A stretch of 64,000 bases of DNA from Leptolyngbya sp. FACHB-261 (GTDB lineage Bacteria > Cyanobacteriota > Cyanobacteriia > FACHB-261): contig NZ_JACJPL010000015.1 in NCBI RefSeq assembly GCF_014696065.1, forward strand, positions 124,001 through 188,000, in the 5' to 3' direction. The position numbers and the translations under genes are program-made. Shown in pieces: positions 9,848-42,076 of this stretch (within the stretch, counting starts at the first letter, position 1; every line of letters begins with the position of its first letter). The notes beneath the pieces are model-generated. The model was not told the origin of the DNA. It made no database searches and saw nothing but the letters and a program-made list of their open reading frames with translations.

Positions 9848-10600
9848 CTAGAGCGGGCTATCCGCTTCCATAGCCTCAAACAACTGCTCAAACTCTGTTT
9901 TGATAGTTCGGTAACACTCGCAGGAAACGGCCTCTAAGCTCTCACGATCCTGGATTGCGATTTTGCCTCGGCTGTAGCGAATTATCCCTGCCCGTTGCAA
10001 GCTACCCGCCGCCACCGTCACCCCAGCGCGACGCACTCCCAGCATGTAGGAGATGAATTCTTGCGTGAGCGGAAACTCATCCGATTGAACCCGGTCTCGG
10101 CTCATCAGCAACCAACGAGCCAGCCGCTCTTCAATCGTGTGTTTAGCGTTGCAGACGACTGACTGAGAAATCTGGGTGAACAGCGCTTTGGTGTAGCGCA
10201 GCAGCAGGCCTTGCAAAGCAGTGCCACGACCGAACTCTGCCCTGAGTACCGACGCCTTTAGTCTGAAGGCATCCCCAGGCAGCTGGACCTGAGCTTGGCT
10301 GGTAGGAGGCAAGTTCCCCCAGATGACGGGTAGACCGACCATTCCCTCTCGTCCAACCAAACCAACCTCACCCATTGAGCCGTCTGCTAGGGTCAGAACC
10401 AGCGAAATAACGCCGTGGTTCGGAAAATAGACATATTCGATTGGCTCGCTAAGTGAATAGAGGGACTGACCTTGGATGAGCGAGACGAGTTGCAAGTGGG
10501 TCGTAAGCCGCTCGTACTCCTCTCTTGGCAGAGCAGCGAGAATCTGGTTTTGAAGACCATTTTGGGTGCTAATTTTGTAAGGCTCCGCGGTTCTAAACAT
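9848..10600 (-). CDS. Crp/Fnr family transcriptional regulator, paralog 1
   Basis: A 250-residue regulator. The ATG at 10600 has an AAGGAAGG ribosome binding site nine bases upstream; an upstream frame extension to 10645 lacks one. Residues about 30-150 form a cyclic-nucleotide-binding-like beta barrel (IEYVYFPNHGVISLVLTLADG, GREGMVGLPVIWG). The C-terminus holds a winged helix (LTQEFISYMLGVRRAGVTVA, then RYSRGKIAI) and ends with the family-typical SCECYRTIKTEF. The sensor lacks the full cAMP-binding signature, so the ligand is unknown. It is closely related to the proteins at 11033 and 13156. Two GTACG-N4-CGYAC palindromes lie 165-195 bp upstream of the start. Confidence 0.88.
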   Translation of the reverse strand: MFRTAEPYKISTQNGLQNQILAALPREEYERLTTHLQLVSLIQGQSLYSLSEPIEYVYFPNHGVISLVLTLADGSMGEVGLVGREGMVGLPVIWGNLPPTSQAQVQLPGDAFRLKASVLRAEFGRGTALQGLLLRYTKALFTQISQSVVCNAKHTIEERLARWLLMSRDRVQSDEFPLTQEFISYMLGVRRAGVTVAAGSLQRAGIIRYSRGKIAIQDRESLEAVSCECYRTIKTEFEQLFEAMEADSPL

Positions 10601-11032
10601 GAGGAAAAACCTTCCTTCCAAATGCAGTTGAGCTGAAAAAGACAACTGGCAACATCAAGAGAAGGTTGTGGAGCCTGGCTTCGATGTTAAAAGGTGAATT
10701 TTCTGAGAAATAAATTGCGAACTTGAGTCAAATGTGCAGGTTTAATAACTCCAATTGTAGTGAGGTACGTCGGCGCACACAGTACGATAACGTACTAAGT
10801 TAGAAACAATCGCTCAAGTGTGCTGTTTGTGTACTAATTTCCCAGGCTGAATTGCTGACTCCAGGCCAACTACAGGTTGATCCAAGCCTAGCGATAGATC
10901 TTGTCAATAGCTTCGCTGTCTCCTCAATCAACCCTATAGATTTTGAGAGCTGAGAGTTGAGGCGCTAAATTTTGAAGGTCTAAAAACTTTGATTCGCTTT
11001 GCTTCAACCGGTCCTCCCTTTCTTGACTACGA
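10601..11032. other. intergenic region upstream of Crp paralog 1
   Basis: No gene is seen. It contains the Crp-paralog operator-like palindromes at 10765-10778 and 10782-10795. The rest is AT-rich without an obvious terminator for paralog 2. Confidence 0.5.
10765..10795. promoter_or_regulatory. two GTACG-N4-CGYAC palindromes (paralog 1)
   Basis: Site 10765-10778 reads gtacg-tcgg-cgcac and site 10782-10795 reads gtacg-ataa-cgtac (perfect half-sites). The centres are 17 bp apart. Both fit GTA-N8-TAC or a one-mismatch version, the spacing known for NtcA. The same motif recurs upstream of the other two paralogs. Confidence 0.6.
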
Positions 11033-11746
11033 TTAGTCTGCTTCCCCCCCAGCAAACAAGCGCTGAAATTCTGTTTTGACAACCCGGTAGCACTCACAAG
11101 AAGCTGCTGCTAAACCCTCGCAATCCAGAACGTTGATTTTGCCTCGGCTGTAGCGAATCAATCCGGCCTGCTGGAGGTTACCTGCCGCGACTGTCACCCC
11201 AGCACGACGAACCGCCAGCATTTGTGAAATGAATTCCTGCGTGAGTTGAAACTCAGACGATTGGGCATGGTCTTGAGCCATAAGCAACCAACGGGCTAAC
11301 CGCTCTTCGATCATGTGCCTGCTGTTGCAGATTGCCGACTGCGAAACTTGAATGAACAGGCCTTTGGTGTAGCGCAGCAGCAAACTTTGCAAAGCCCCGC
11401 CCCGATTGAACTCCCCCTTGAGCAGCGCGGCCTTCAGTCTAAAGGCGTCCCCAGGCAACTGTACTTGAGCGAGATTGTTTGGGGGTAGGTCACCCCAAGT
11501 GACCGAGAGACCCACCATCCCTTCCCGCCCAGTCAAACCGACTTCGGCCATTGAACCGTCTTCTAGCATCAGGACTAGAGAAACGGCTCCCTGATGCAAA
11601 AAATAGACATACTCAATTGGCTTACCAATTTCATGAAGGACGTCACCCCGCGAGAGCGAGACCCGTTCAAAGTGGGAGGCAAGACGTTGGTAGTCTTCCT
11701 CAGGCAAGGCAGCAAGTAGACGGTTCTGAAGGCCAGTTTGAGTATT
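11033..11746 (-). CDS. Crp/Fnr family transcriptional regulator, paralog 2
   Basis: About 237 residues if translation begins at an ATT codon (11744-11746). The homologous N-terminus TQTGLQNRLLAALPEEDYQRL is in frame upstream of the first TTG (11705-11707), but no ATG, GTG or TTG lies between that TTG and the upstream stop. The ATT has a GGGAG ribosome binding site seven bases upstream. The nearest ATG (minus strand, ending 11765) is out of frame and soon hits a stop. Beta-barrel domain (IEYVYFLHQGAVSLVL, GREGMVGLSVTWG) and winged helix (FISQMLAVRRAGVTVA) match paralogs 1 and 3. The gene either uses a rare start or has lost its ATG by a small indel. Confidence 0.8.
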   Translation of the reverse strand, partial: NTQTGLQNRLLAALPEEDYQRLASHFERVSLSRGDVLHEIGKPIEYVYFLHQGAVSLVLMLEDGSMAEVGLTGREGMVGLSVTWGDLPPNNLAQVQLPGDAFRLKAALLKGEFNRGGALQSLLLRYTKGLFIQVSQSAICNSRHMIEERLARWLLMAQDHAQSSEFQLTQEFISQMLAVRRAGVTVAAGNLQQAGLIRYSRGKINVLDCEGLAAASCECYRVVKTEFQRLFAGGEAD

Positions 11747-11954
11747 AATAACAAGGCTCCCTCATGATTAAGCGGATATCAGGAGATATCTCTTGAAAGT
11801 CCGTCGGAGTCAGAAGAGACTACTTACAAAATCAGCAAGAGGTTTCAAAGCCTGAATTTTAATGTTAACTAAAAGGGAGCTTCTAGAACAGTTGCAAGCT
11901 CAATGAGAAGCAAAGTTTGAACAACTTAATACAGCCCAGCAGACCGATGAAAAG

Positions 11955-12014
11955 GTACGCTAACGCACCGGAGCGAAACAACCAAGAAAGTTCGATATTG
12001 GTACGTTAGTGCCT
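11955..12014. promoter_or_regulatory. GTACG-N4-CGCAC palindrome and degenerate second site (paralog 2)
   Basis: 11955-11968 reads gtacg-ctaa-cgcac. 12001-12014 has an intact left half but tgcct on the right. Centres are 46 bp apart. They lie about 210-270 bp upstream of paralog 2. Confidence 0.5.
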
Positions 12015-12351
12015 CAGTATGGAGCGCTGAACCTAGGCTAAATCGGTGAATAGGCAAACCCCAATCCCCAGACTATAAAGCTGAGCTGTGCGCTTAAACA
12101 CAAGCTGCTTTTACAATGTCTTTTGCAGATTATTTTCTACAGATGTCTAGAGCAATTTTGATTGTTAAGTTGACTTGTCGTGTAGCCAACCGTAAGAGAA
12201 AAAATATAGGCAAGGCAGCCGTACTGTATCCCGCAATTCAGATTTAACTAATTTGTCTGCGTTATGCTGCTGTAGTGCTAAGTGATTCAGACCAATCTTT
12301 TCTCGCGAGAACGTACAGAATCAACCGACAAGGTGTAAGATGCGCTTCTGA

Positions 12352-12365
12352 GTACACTGCCGTAC
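12352..12365. promoter_or_regulatory. GTACA-N4-CGTAC palindrome upstream of receiver gene
   Basis: One mismatch from the GTACG-N4-CGTAC consensus, and it keeps GTA-N8-TAC exactly. It lies 210 bp upstream of the receiver protein start. Confidence 0.45.
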
Positions 12366-12574
12366 TGAAATGATAGTCTGCATTGATTAGTATTGCTCTT
12401 ATATGCCTTTGATTCCAAGGCTCAACCCGACCCACTGGTCAAAGGCTCTGACTAGAGGTCCCATTCAAAGATTCCGGTCAAAAGTTTAAAGCCCTACTGT
12501 CGGATTGATCGAATTGTTAGCGTTCTCCAAACCTGTAGAAAACGTTGATTGCCAAGGAGGTTAGTCAGAAGATC

Positions 12575-13000
12575 ATGGACCTACAACGTACCTCCACCTG
12601 TGAGCAGTGCATCATCGGCGATCAACCTCTGATCCTGTCAGTCGATTCTCAGGAAGACAGCCGCTTTCTTTGTAACTTCGTTCTGAGCCAATTGGGCTGT
12701 TCTTATATCACTGCTGCTGATGGCAGGAGCGCTTTCGAACTGAGTCGGCTTTACCAGCCAGCGCTGATTCTTACAGAGATTGTCCTGCCCGACCTCAGCG
12801 GTTTTGAGCTGGTTTCCCTGCTTAAGAAAAACCCTTATACAGCAAGCATCCCAACCATTGCCGTCACTGCAACCGAGTTGATGGGCGGTTGGAGAGAGCT
12901 TTTGGAGGCAGGCTTCGATGGCTACCTCAGTAAGCCCTACCAGCTTGAGGCACTAGAAGCATTGATTCAACACTTCCTTCCTGTCCTGGTCACTGCCTAA
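12575..13000 (+). CDS. receiver-domain protein with Glu at the phospho-acceptor position
   Basis: A 142-residue single CheY-like receiver. ATG at 12575 is preceded by AGGAGG at 14 bases; a TTG at 12545 is also in frame. The fold is clear: LILSVDSQEDSRFL (acidic pocket, only Asp24 kept where DD is usual), ALILTEIVLPDLSGFEL, IPTIAVTATEL and YLSKPYQLEAL. The residue aligned with the phosphorylated Asp is Glu68. Thr and Lys of the switch are present. Glu mimics a phosphorylated state in some receivers, so this may be a constitutively active or phosphorylation-independent adaptor. No output domain is attached. It sits inside the Crp island, convergent with paralog 3. Confidence 0.82.
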   Translation: MDLQRTSTCEQCIIGDQPLILSVDSQEDSRFLCNFVLSQLGCSYITAADGRSAFELSRLYQPALILTEIVLPDLSGFELVSLLKKNPYTASIPTIAVTATELMGGWRELLEAGFDGYLSKPYQLEALEALIQHFLPVLVTA

Positions 13001-13030
13001 TCCCAACCCACTCTTTAATCGCTACACGAC

Positions 13031-13077
13031 CCTTCCAACCTCCCCTTGCTAAGGGAGGTGCCGCAGGCGGTGGGGTT
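13031..13077 (+). repeat. dispersed repeat, copy B
   Basis: Shares aacctccccttgctaaggg and a gcggtggggtt end with copy C. The cctccccttgctaagggagg core can fold as a hairpin. Confidence 0.75.
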
Positions 13078-13102
13078 CTGTTTTGTAGCTCTCAACATTG
13101 AC

Positions 13103-13151
13103 CCCTCCTAACCTCCCCTTGCTAAGGGGAAGAACTGTAGGCGGTGGGGTT
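13103..13151 (+). repeat. dispersed repeat, copy C
   Basis: Second nearby copy in the same orientation as copy B, 72 bp start to start. It ends five bases before the stop codon of Crp paralog 3, so the convergent 3' ends of the receiver and paralog 3 are separated almost entirely by repeat DNA. Confidence 0.75.
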
Positions 13152-13155
13152 CGGC

Positions 13156-13878
13156 TTAGTCTCCAATCCCTTCAAGGCCGAACAGGCGCTCAAACTCAGT
13201 TTTCACAACTCGATAACATTCGCAAGAAGCGTCTTGCAAGCTGTCCCGGTTTAGCACTGTGATTTTGCCCCGACTGTAGCGAATCAGCCCGGCCCGTTGC
13301 AGGCCCCCTGCCGCTACCGTCACCCCAGCGCGACGCACCCCAAGCATATGAGAGATGAATTCCTGCGTGAGCGGAAAGACATCCGCTTGGGCATGGTCTT
13401 GGGTCATCAACAGCCAGCGGGCCAGCCGTCTCTCGATCGTGTGTTTAGCGTTGCAAACCGCCGACTGCGAAGCTTGAGTAAATAGCCCCTGCGTATAGCG
13501 CAGCAGCAGGTTTTGCAGAACTTCGCCCCGTTCAAACTCCTTCTTGAGCAGGGCAGTTGGCAAACTCAAGGCGTTGCCCGGAAGTTGGACGATAGCCCGA
13601 TGGTTACTGGTAGAACTCTCCCAAATCACCGGCGTCCCTGCCATCCCTTCCCGTCCAACCACCCCAGCTTCAACCATGGAGCCATCTTCTGCGGTTAGAA
13701 CCAGGGAGATCATCCCCTTATTTAAGAAGTAGACCTGCTCAATCGGTTGGCCAATTTCGTAGAGAATTCGACCACTGGGAAGCAAGGTAGGCTCAAGGTG
13801 AGCAGCAAGTCGCTGATAGTCTTCATCCGGTAGAGCAGCGAGCAGGCGATTTTGAGTAGAAAGAGACGTTTGGGACAC
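13156..13878 (-). CDS. Crp/Fnr family transcriptional regulator, paralog 3
   Basis: 240 residues from a GTG start (AAGG a few bases upstream). The barrel domain (IEQVYFLNKGMISLVL, VVGREGMAGTPVIWE) is followed by a winged helix FISHMLGVRRAGVTVAAGG and the wing RYSRGKITVL. The C-terminus SCECYRVVKTEFERLF matches the two paralogs. The three proteins share long identical stretches, so they probably arose by local duplication. Ligand unknown. Three GTACG-N4-CGTAC-type palindromes lie 200-310 bp upstream. Confidence 0.88.
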   Translation of the reverse strand: MSQTSLSTQNRLLAALPDEDYQRLAAHLEPTLLPSGRILYEIGQPIEQVYFLNKGMISLVLTAEDGSMVEAGVVGREGMAGTPVIWESSTSNHRAIVQLPGNALSLPTALLKKEFERGEVLQNLLLRYTQGLFTQASQSAVCNAKHTIERRLARWLLMTQDHAQADVFPLTQEFISHMLGVRRAGVTVAAGGLQRAGLIRYSRGKITVLNRDSLQDASCECYRVVKTEFERLFGLEGIGD

Positions 13879-14547
13879 AAACCTTAAAAAAATACAAAGA
13901 CATTTCTGCCCGATTAGTTAGGCTTTAGAAGAGGCCTGACTGTTTCGAAGAGAGTTTTGGAAATTCGATTCTAATACCAACAGGCAAGCCTTATAAAGAG
14001 CAAGCTACTTCAGCCAATCAATAGGGCATCATTTCCCTATTATCACATACTAACCATACATGATTAGAAGCGTCTCATATGTACGCTAACGTTCTCTACA
14101 AGGTATCAAAAGCTCTGCTATTCGTACGTTACCGTACACAAACAACCAGCTTTTTTAATAAAAAGCTTCATAGGTGCATTAACGTACCGATTTAATTTGA
14201 GTTTATAGACACAATTAGAAGAGTAACGATCTAGCTGTAGACTTAGCTGCCAGTTTTGAGAGCGTGAACTCTACCCCAGTTCACAGTAACTAGCCAAAAG
14301 ACAGAGCTAAAAAGTTACAGCTAAGTGCGTAGGGTGCTATCCCTTAAGCTAACCATACAAAAACGGTTTAATCATGACCAAGATGAAAAGTGGGTTTTAG
14401 CGCCCTGCATACAGAAATACAGGTCAACGAAAACAAACATGGCCTGAGGTGCGAGGTTGTCCGTAGCCTGCCGGTAAAGAATGGCAGGCACATATTTGTG
14501 TGTCCTTTTTGTGCGTCAAAGTTTTTAAGCGTCAGGGAAATCAGCAA
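13879..14547. other. 669-bp divergent intergenic region between paralog 3 and PAS-Crp gene
   Basis: No gene is seen. The left half carries three operator-like palindromes; the right half (14220-14500) has no structure I can assign. It should contain promoters for both divergent genes. Confidence 0.5.
14081..14187. promoter_or_regulatory. three GTACG-N4-CGTAC-type palindromes (paralog 3 / PAS-Crp)
   Basis: 14081-14094 gtacg-ctaa-cgttc; 14124-14137 gtacg-ttac-cgtac (perfect); 14174-14187 gtgca-ttaa-cgtac. Centres are 43 and 50 bp apart, roughly four to five helical turns, which could place bound dimers on about the same face. Confidence 0.6.
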
Positions 14548-15750
14548 ATGACAGCTAGAACGAGATTAGAAACTTTTGATCGACAAATTCAGTTGATGCA
14601 TGGACAGTTAGCTGAGCTGTGCGAACAGGCTAGCCAAACCTCTATACAGCAACCCAGTCGATTGCCCCTTGTCTTTAGAAACTTGGGGATTGCCTCAGAA
14701 AAATTGCAAGTTGTTGCCGAGGGTCTGTGCCAGCAGAACGAGAAGCTGCTAAAGGAAAACGAAGAACTGGCAACAGCTCGGCAAGCCGCAAACGCCGAGC
14801 GTCGGCAATACCGAGAACTGCTTGAATTTGCCTCGGATGGATACTTAGAGACAACTAGCGAAGGCGTGATCCAGAGCGCCAACCGAGCCGCAGCCGCGAT
14901 CCTAGCAATCCCGCAGCAGTCCTTGGTCGGCAAGCGCTTGTTCAGCCTGGTGCAGGAGACCGAAAGCTGGACCTTCCGCTCTCAAGTGCTCCACACTGAC
15001 TGGACCGAGCCGGTACGCGTGTGGCAGATCCGTTTGCGCGCTGGCAATGGGCGCGTCTTTAATGCCTCACTCACGGCAACCGCGATCTGCAACCCCTTGG
15101 GCCAGCCAGGTGACCTGCGCTGGTTGGTCCGCGATGTCACCAGTTGGCACGACAGGCAAGCGCCAGCGATCCAGGAGCCGGAAGCCGAAGAGCAACTGGC
15201 GCAGACCTATCACAAAGGCGAGGCGATCCCGATCAAGCCGCAGATGGTTTGGCAGGTCAAGCAAGGTTTAGTCAAGCTAACCACCCTGGCCAGCAAGGGC
15301 GAAGAAATCTTGGTTGGCTTTGCCGGACCCGGCATGCCCTTTGGCTCTGATTTGACCTACCTGCCGATCTATCAGGCGATTGCCCTTTCAGATTCTGTGC
15401 AGTTGGTCAGCATGTCCCAGTCCGAAATCGACGCCTCACCCGAGGCATCGCGTCGGTTCGCCTCTCAGATGAAGCAGCGGCTACAGCAAGCCGAAGCTCT
15501 GCTCGCAATCTCTGGGCAGATCCGCGTCTCCGAGCGCTTGCAGCATCTTTTGATCTGGCTAAAGCGGGAAGTCGGTGTACCCGTGGCTGAAGGCACGCGG
15601 CTCAGTGTTCGCCTCACCCACGAGGACCTAGCGAGCGCTTGCTGCACCACGCGAGTCACGATTACCCGAGTGCTGGCCAAACTCCAGAAGCAGGGCAAGG
15701 TCAGTCTCGACGCCAAGCGTCACATCATCCTCAAAGCAGGCAACTTCTAA
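14548..15750 (+). CDS. PAS-domain Crp/Fnr-type regulator with NtcA-like recognition helix
   Basis: 400 residues from ATG 14548 (a GTG at 14500 is in frame). Order: N-terminal helical/coiled-coil part (about 1-85, NEKLLKENEELATARQ), a PAS domain (about 90-205, YRELLEFASDGYLETTSEG to DLRWLVRDVT), a short cNMP-binding-like barrel (about 235-300, KQGLVKLTTLASKGEEILVGF), a dimerisation helix, and a winged helix (about 335-398). The recognition helix TTRVTITRVLAKL is very close to that of NtcA (TRVTVTRLL), and NtcA binds GTA-N8-TAC. PAS linked to a Crp-type domain suggests direct sensing by a one-component regulator. It overlaps the convergent EamA gene by four bases at the stop codons. Confidence 0.85.
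   Translation: MTARTRLETFDRQIQLMHGQLAELCEQASQTSIQQPSRLPLVFRNLGIASEKLQVVAEGLCQQNEKLLKENEELATARQAANAERRQYRELLEFASDGYLETTSEGVIQSANRAAAAILAIPQQSLVGKRLFSLVQETESWTFRSQVLHTDWTEPVRVWQIRLRAGNGRVFNASLTATAICNPLGQPGDLRWLVRDVTSWHDRQAPAIQEPEAEEQLAQTYHKGEAIPIKPQMVWQVKQGLVKLTTLASKGEEILVGFAGPGMPFGSDLTYLPIYQAIALSDSVQLVSMSQSEIDASPEASRRFASQMKQRLQQAEALLAISGQIRVSERLQHLLIWLKREVGVPVAEGTRLSVRLTHEDLASACCTTRVTITRVLAKLQKQGKVSLDAKRHIILKAGNF

Positions 15751-38251: not shown

Positions 38252-42076
<3,825 letters not shown>

Follow-up and report, generated by a model that had tools for sequence, protein, structure and literature searches.

Comparison with described Crp-superfamily systems

Promoters activated by NtcA carry a GTA-N8-TAC operator centred at −41.5 together with a TAN3T box, and chromatin immunoprecipitation data show that NtcA sites tend to have T and C as their fourth and fifth bases (PMC3898017). 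We analysed a stretch of 64,000 nucleotides from Leptolyngbya sp. FACHB-261 (contig NZ_JACJPL010000015.1, positions 124,001 to 188,000; hereafter the window), which includes an island encoding three Crp-family regulators, Crp1, Crp2 and Crp3, and a stand-alone CheY-like receiver, and in which a palindrome best written (T)GTACGNTANCGTAC(A) recurs. The palindrome is probably this Crp subfamily's own operator, and it would drive local positive auto- and cross-regulation rather than a genome-wide regulon.

The locus resembles NtcA class II promoters in having Crp-superfamily regulators, a 14-bp palindrome register, a predicted operator position of −41.5 and a TAN3T −10 box. It differs from them in an operator whose positions 4-5 are almost always CG and whose centre is TA, in proteins far below the cut-off of the NtcA model (NCBIfam TIGR03697, cut-off 244.95; crp2 21.5 bits, crp3 25.5 bits, crp1 no match), and in predicted targets that are the regulator's own locus rather than a nitrogen regulon; the motif also occurs outside cyanobacteria. 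An earlier, sequence-only reading of the window had equated the spacing of the sites with the NtcA consensus: the spacing is indeed shared, and three window promoters display a predicted NtcA-type geometry (−41.5, TAN3T), but only three of the eight sites (at 10782, 12352 and 14124) fit GTA-N8-TAC strictly, and the flanking preference differs.

With E. coli CRP (TGTGA-N6-TCACA) the system shares the register (TGTAC-N6-GTACA), a helix-turn-helix bearing an Arg equivalent to CRP R180, and a predicted class II geometry. Here, in contrast, Ala, Ser, Pro or Thr replaces Glu181, and the sites diverge at their third and fourth positions. The Arg82-Ser83 pair that contacts cyclic AMP (cAMP) in CRP is not conserved as judged by eye, the phosphate-binding cassette reading S/N-Q/L-A-Q-V instead of R-S-A-x-V in the alignments, and cAMP is thus not the expected signal. 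FixK/FnrL/DNR-type Crp-Fnr regulators belong to the same superfamily and have the same HTH_Crp_2 domain, but they give only weak model matches, and the C-terminal CECY motif found here is different.

By their domain matches, Crp1, Crp2 and Crp3 are members of the Crp/Fnr superfamily. All three score 53-56 bits against the Crp-type winged helix-turn-helix model PF13545 (cut-off 27); against the N-terminal, cyclic-nucleotide-binding-like PF00027 (cut-off 27.5), crp2 (30.8) and crp3 (31.4) lie above the cut-off and crp1 (24.5) below it. The nearest solved structures are generic Crp/Fnr regulators. We found no published description of the operator or of this Crp branch in the open-access literature, an absence that is weak evidence. 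What is new is the operator, its link to an apparently unstudied Crp branch and a natural change of specificity; the mechanism is a known one.

Predicted operator sites in the window and in the host genome

The sequence-only reading had listed eight copies of GTACG-N4-CGTAC, of which (T)GTACGNTANCGTAC(A) is a sharper form, and all eight lie exactly where it placed them. The predicted operators and the genes around them are as follows.

9848-10600, minus strand: crp1, Crp-family regulator (Pfam HTH_Crp_2), recognition helix GVRRAGVTVAAG
10765-10778, minus strand: degenerate proximal operator of crp1, GTACGTCGGCGCAC (GTGCGCCGACGTAC on the minus strand)
10782-10795, minus strand: main operator of crp1, GTACGATAACGTAC (GTACGTTATCGTAC on the minus strand), 12/12 match, predicted centre −41.5
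11033-11756, minus strand: crp2, Crp-family regulator, exact start uncertain
11955-11968, minus strand: operator of crp2, GTACGCTAACGCAC (GTGCGTTAGCGTAC on the minus strand), 11/12, without TAN3T at N22
12001-12014, minus strand: degenerate distal operator of crp2, GTACGTTAGTGCCT, 46 bp from the operator at 11955
12352-12365, plus strand: operator of the receiver gene, GTACACTGCCGTAC, 10/12
12575-13000, plus strand: stand-alone CheY-like receiver (Pfam Response_reg)
13156-13878, minus strand: crp3, Crp-family regulator
14081-14094, minus strand: proximal operator of crp3, GTACGCTAACGTTC (GAACGTTAGCGTAC on the minus strand), 11/12, predicted centre −41.5
14124-14137, minus strand: middle operator of crp3, GTACGTTACCGTAC (GTACGGTAACGTAC on the minus strand), 12/12, 43 bp further upstream than the proximal operator
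14174-14187, strand unassigned: distal operator between crp3 and the PAS-Crp gene, GTGCATTAACGTAC, 10/12
14548-15750, plus strand: PAS-Crp regulator with an NtcA/PtrA-like helix, TTRVTITR; a neighbour, not supported as a conserved binder

Additional operator copies stand 43-50 bp upstream at crp2 and crp3, and the distal operator at 14174-14187 could serve either of the two divergent genes, crp3 or PAS-Crp. The further claim that sites occur only in the island does not hold strictly, since 40893-40906 also matches with one mismatch. Allowing up to two mismatches, the loose GTACG-N4-CGTAC pattern has 18 matches in the window against 10.6 expected, an excess so modest that the raw pattern alone is weak evidence.

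A genome-wide count, which the sequence-only reading had proposed as a check, found the motif rare and concentrated at Crp-family loci. Exact GTACGNTANCGTAC occurs twice in the 6.95-Mb genome, both times within the island; with at most one mismatch it occurs at seven places, four in the island and one each on C30, C18 and C31. Six of the seven adjoin genes of the same Crp subfamily: the C30 place is upstream of a fourth close paralog, and the C18 place precedes, by about 105 bp, a second receiver gene that adjoins two more distant paralogs. The C31 place has no evident relation to the subfamily.

Conservation before genes of related regulators

We collected relatives from 63 loci in named genomes and from a class-wide search; the combined set comprised 218 genes, with 197 upstream regions once redundancy was removed. 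The motif itself had brought at least one locus (L101) into the sample, and four come from the host genome, which is the sole genome of its order in the comparison set; the conclusion is unchanged without these loci.

The same palindrome precedes many subfamily genes across cyanobacteria, as well as relatives in Rhizobium sp. LC145 (12/12) and in Microvirga, Rubrobacter and an alphaproteobacterium (11/12), so that conservation upstream of relatives, another check that had been suggested, is found both within cyanobacteria and beyond. An unbiased scan of the 197 regions for palindromes with every 5-bp half-site and spacings from 0 to 12 ranked GTACG-N4-CGTAC first, with 28 regions against a maximum of 4 after shuffling; second came TGTAC-N6-GTACA (15 regions), which is the same register, one base wider. 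The full motif is present at 11 or more of its 12 positions in 38 of the 197 regions, while 59 permuted half-sites averaged 0.05 regions and never exceeded 1. Sites are densest in the 400 bp upstream, at about 5 per 10 kb, and absent from the first 600 bp of coding region. In many relatives, the gene that follows the operator is a receiver gene placed ahead of the crp gene or alongside it, and similar receivers adjoin Crp relatives across many genomes.

Nine named genomes with matches had been selected for having such a locus, and 11 of their 12 exact copies are at family loci. An unselected survey of the phylum found exact copies in 9 of 291 genomes; setting the host genome aside, about 6 of 10 copies coincide with or lie close to a family gene, whether full or partial, and of the rest at least two fall inside unrelated coding sequence. 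A Rhizobiaceae genome (G629; L271 and L272) has an exact operator flanked by a family gene and a divergent receiver gene (L271). In the same genome another operator lies about 50 bp before an apparent extracytoplasmic function sigma factor gene that adjoins a family gene.

Predicted promoter layout

We searched for a TAN3T box at each offset from the site in 62 oriented contexts. The box lies exactly 22 bp downstream of the site in 14 of them, against 1.85 expected, and the next best offset has 5. This spacing would place the operator centre at −41.5, the position of a class II activator, and we infer a class II, Crp-dependent layout. In the window, the predicted −10 boxes are:

10754-10759, minus strand: TACAAT, crp1, exactly 22 bp past the operator at 10782
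12388-12393, plus strand: TAGTAT, receiver gene, 22 bp past its operator at 12352
14053-14058, minus strand: TATGGT, crp3, 22 bp past the proximal operator at 14081

A scan of the region for sigma-70 promoters showed no excess (3 found, 3.7 expected), as would be expected if these promoters have no proper −35 element. We also observed AGAC directly after the operator on the gene side in 9 of the 62 contexts (for example L054, L101, L130, L131 and L158), possibly the remnant of a −35 element.

Covariation of recognition helix and operator

Family members were classed by the residues equivalent to CRP 179-180, and operators as type A (GTACG) or type B, GTTAG-N4-CTAAC (GTTAGNTANCTAAC). Upstream of the 172 genes with Arg-Arg helices there are 34 type A operators and none of type B; upstream of the ten with Asn-Arg helices there are eight of type B and none of type A (P = 8e-9 for 34/0 against 0/8, with shared ancestry ignored). 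In the ten Nostoc-type genomes with type B loci, the 16-bp type B form has eight copies, six of which precede family genes, one of these being an Arg-Arg paralog (L261). By general principles of protein-DNA recognition, an Arg at the CRP-179 equivalent would be suited to the G opposite C4, and an Asn to A4. The covariation implies that the Crp family itself reads the site, and is what binding by the family would be expected to produce; the recognition helices of Crp1, Crp2 and Crp3 are identical at the key positions.

Other helix groups gave less. No shared palindrome was found for the Pro-Arg and His-Arg groups. Two possible variants were noted upstream of family genes (L203, L213 and L216; L021, L025 and L026): GTTCGNTGGCGAAC, with Gly-Arg or Arg-Arg-Pro helices, and TACCGCNAGCGGTA, with helices that contain the sequence TEAA. 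The TACCG variant (four upstream regions in three genomes) and the GTTCG variant (three regions) are too few to claim.

A proposed local self-activating loop and its alternatives

We consider it probable that the operator belongs to the subfamily that it precedes. A dimer of Crp1, Crp2 or Crp3 would bind the palindrome about 41.5 bp upstream of the transcription start and, like class II Crp and NtcA activators, would activate its own gene, the sister genes and the adjacent CheY-like receiver gene, with a local positive auto- and cross-regulatory loop as the outcome. The sites, their rarity in the genome, their conservation with the family, their covariation with the recognition helix and the N22-TAN3T spacing are shown directly. 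Physical binding, cross-regulation of one paralog by another and induction by a signal other than cAMP are inferred, and that the family activates rather than represses is suggested by the geometry only. A small local regulon with autoregulation, as the sequence-only reading had proposed, finds support in a motif that is conserved, covaries with the helix and sits at a predicted activator position; the suggestion that the neighbouring PAS-Crp protein is the dedicated regulator does not.

Several observations weigh against the loop. No close match is present within 450 bp of about 80% of the Arg-Arg family genes; a few of these genes have the site ahead of a receiver gene that lies upstream, or carry a variant (GTCCNGTTTCGTAC, GTTCG or TACCG), and for many none was found. 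Exact copies in a survey of Rhizobiaceae lie near a family gene in only about 4 of 11 cases, L271 among them, and one pair of copies precedes a TetR-type gene and is probably unrelated. Neither crp2 nor the C18 receiver gene has a TAN3T box at N22. The covariation of the Arg-to-Asn change comes from one clade, Nostoc and its relatives, and in Nostoc flagelliforme (C315) an Arg-Arg family gene (L261) has a type B operator, which would require regulation in trans and suggests control by the Asn-type paralogs.

The closest competitor keeps the family as the binder and has it act mainly as a negative autoregulator. Transcription factors commonly repress themselves in this way, tandem sites occur at several promoters, and some relatives (L101, L145, L147, L158) have the site near the start codon, at about 80-95 bp from the conserved domain; the sole enriched geometry is nonetheless N22-TAN3T, which would set the site at −41.5, the position for class II activation, and there is no enrichment of a box that would make the site overlap the −10 or lie on its downstream side. 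We regard repression as rather unlikely. NtcA, the universal cyanobacterial nitrogen regulator, is a far weaker candidate. If it bound the sites, the family genes would be its targets, and the canonical promoter activated by NtcA does combine GTA-N8-TAC at −41.5 with a TAN3T box, but the sites here have C and G at positions 4-5 with 97-100% conservation, against the tendency to T and C in NtcA sites (PMC3898017). The Nostoc variant GTTAG-N4-CTAAC is incompatible with GTA-N8-TAC, and the 12-mer is nearly exclusive to family loci. The motif also stands before family genes in Rhizobium, Microvirga and Rubrobacter, which to our knowledge lack NtcA. The flanking bases, taxonomic range and GTTAG variant together led us to judge NtcA very unlikely to be the binder.

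The PAS-Crp protein adjoins the sites and is itself of Crp type, and the sequence-only reading had pointed to it and to its NtcA-like helix. None of its 24 homologues from other genomes has the motif upstream, it does not recur next to the Crp family genes, and its helix is unlike the one that covaries with the site; we rejected it, and its being the dedicated regulator now seems highly improbable. There is scarcely any likelihood left for the view that the sites are duplicated sequence or functionless chance matches. The three crp genes are paralogs (63-67% identical), and crp1 and the C30 paralog have common upstream sequence (76% identical over 201 bp), but this is the only such pair: the sequences upstream of crp1, crp2, crp3 and the receiver gene cannot be aligned as a whole, so the window sites were not simply copied along with the genes, and this explanation was rejected for those four. 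Chance is excluded by the cross-phylum conservation, the palindrome scan, the permuted half-sites and the fixed −10 spacing; the last three controls already refute this view.

Further features of the family and the island

In the family to which the three crp genes (9848-13878) belong, C-x-C-Y, usually CECY, occurs near the C-terminus in 156 of the 218 relatives, and Cys-Asn (A-C-N) in the dimer-helix region in 163; a role of these Cys motifs in redox or metal sensing is possible. In crp2 (11700-11770) there is no ATG, GTG or TTG where the paralogs start, the first listed start being an internal TTG; a rare start codon or a shortened gene may explain this. Positions 13035-13155, lying between receiver gene and crp3, contain two near-identical CCTCCCCTTGCTAAGGG...GGCGGTGGGGTTC repeats.

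Implications

Sites of this kind should not be called NtcA sites when cyanobacterial GTA-N8-TAC sequences are annotated, because the spacing matches and the owner most likely differs. For a large, apparently unstudied Crp branch, the analysis provides a predicted DNA target and promoter layout, and the natural residue-to-base swap (Arg to Asn, GTACG to GTTAG) renders Crp recognition directly testable. More speculatively, the subfamily may be a widespread self-activating, possibly bistable switch of Crp and receiver with a private operator, in which helix and operator change together as paralogs multiply (GTACG, GTTAG, perhaps GTTCG and TACCG) and so could yield new insulated circuits within one genome.

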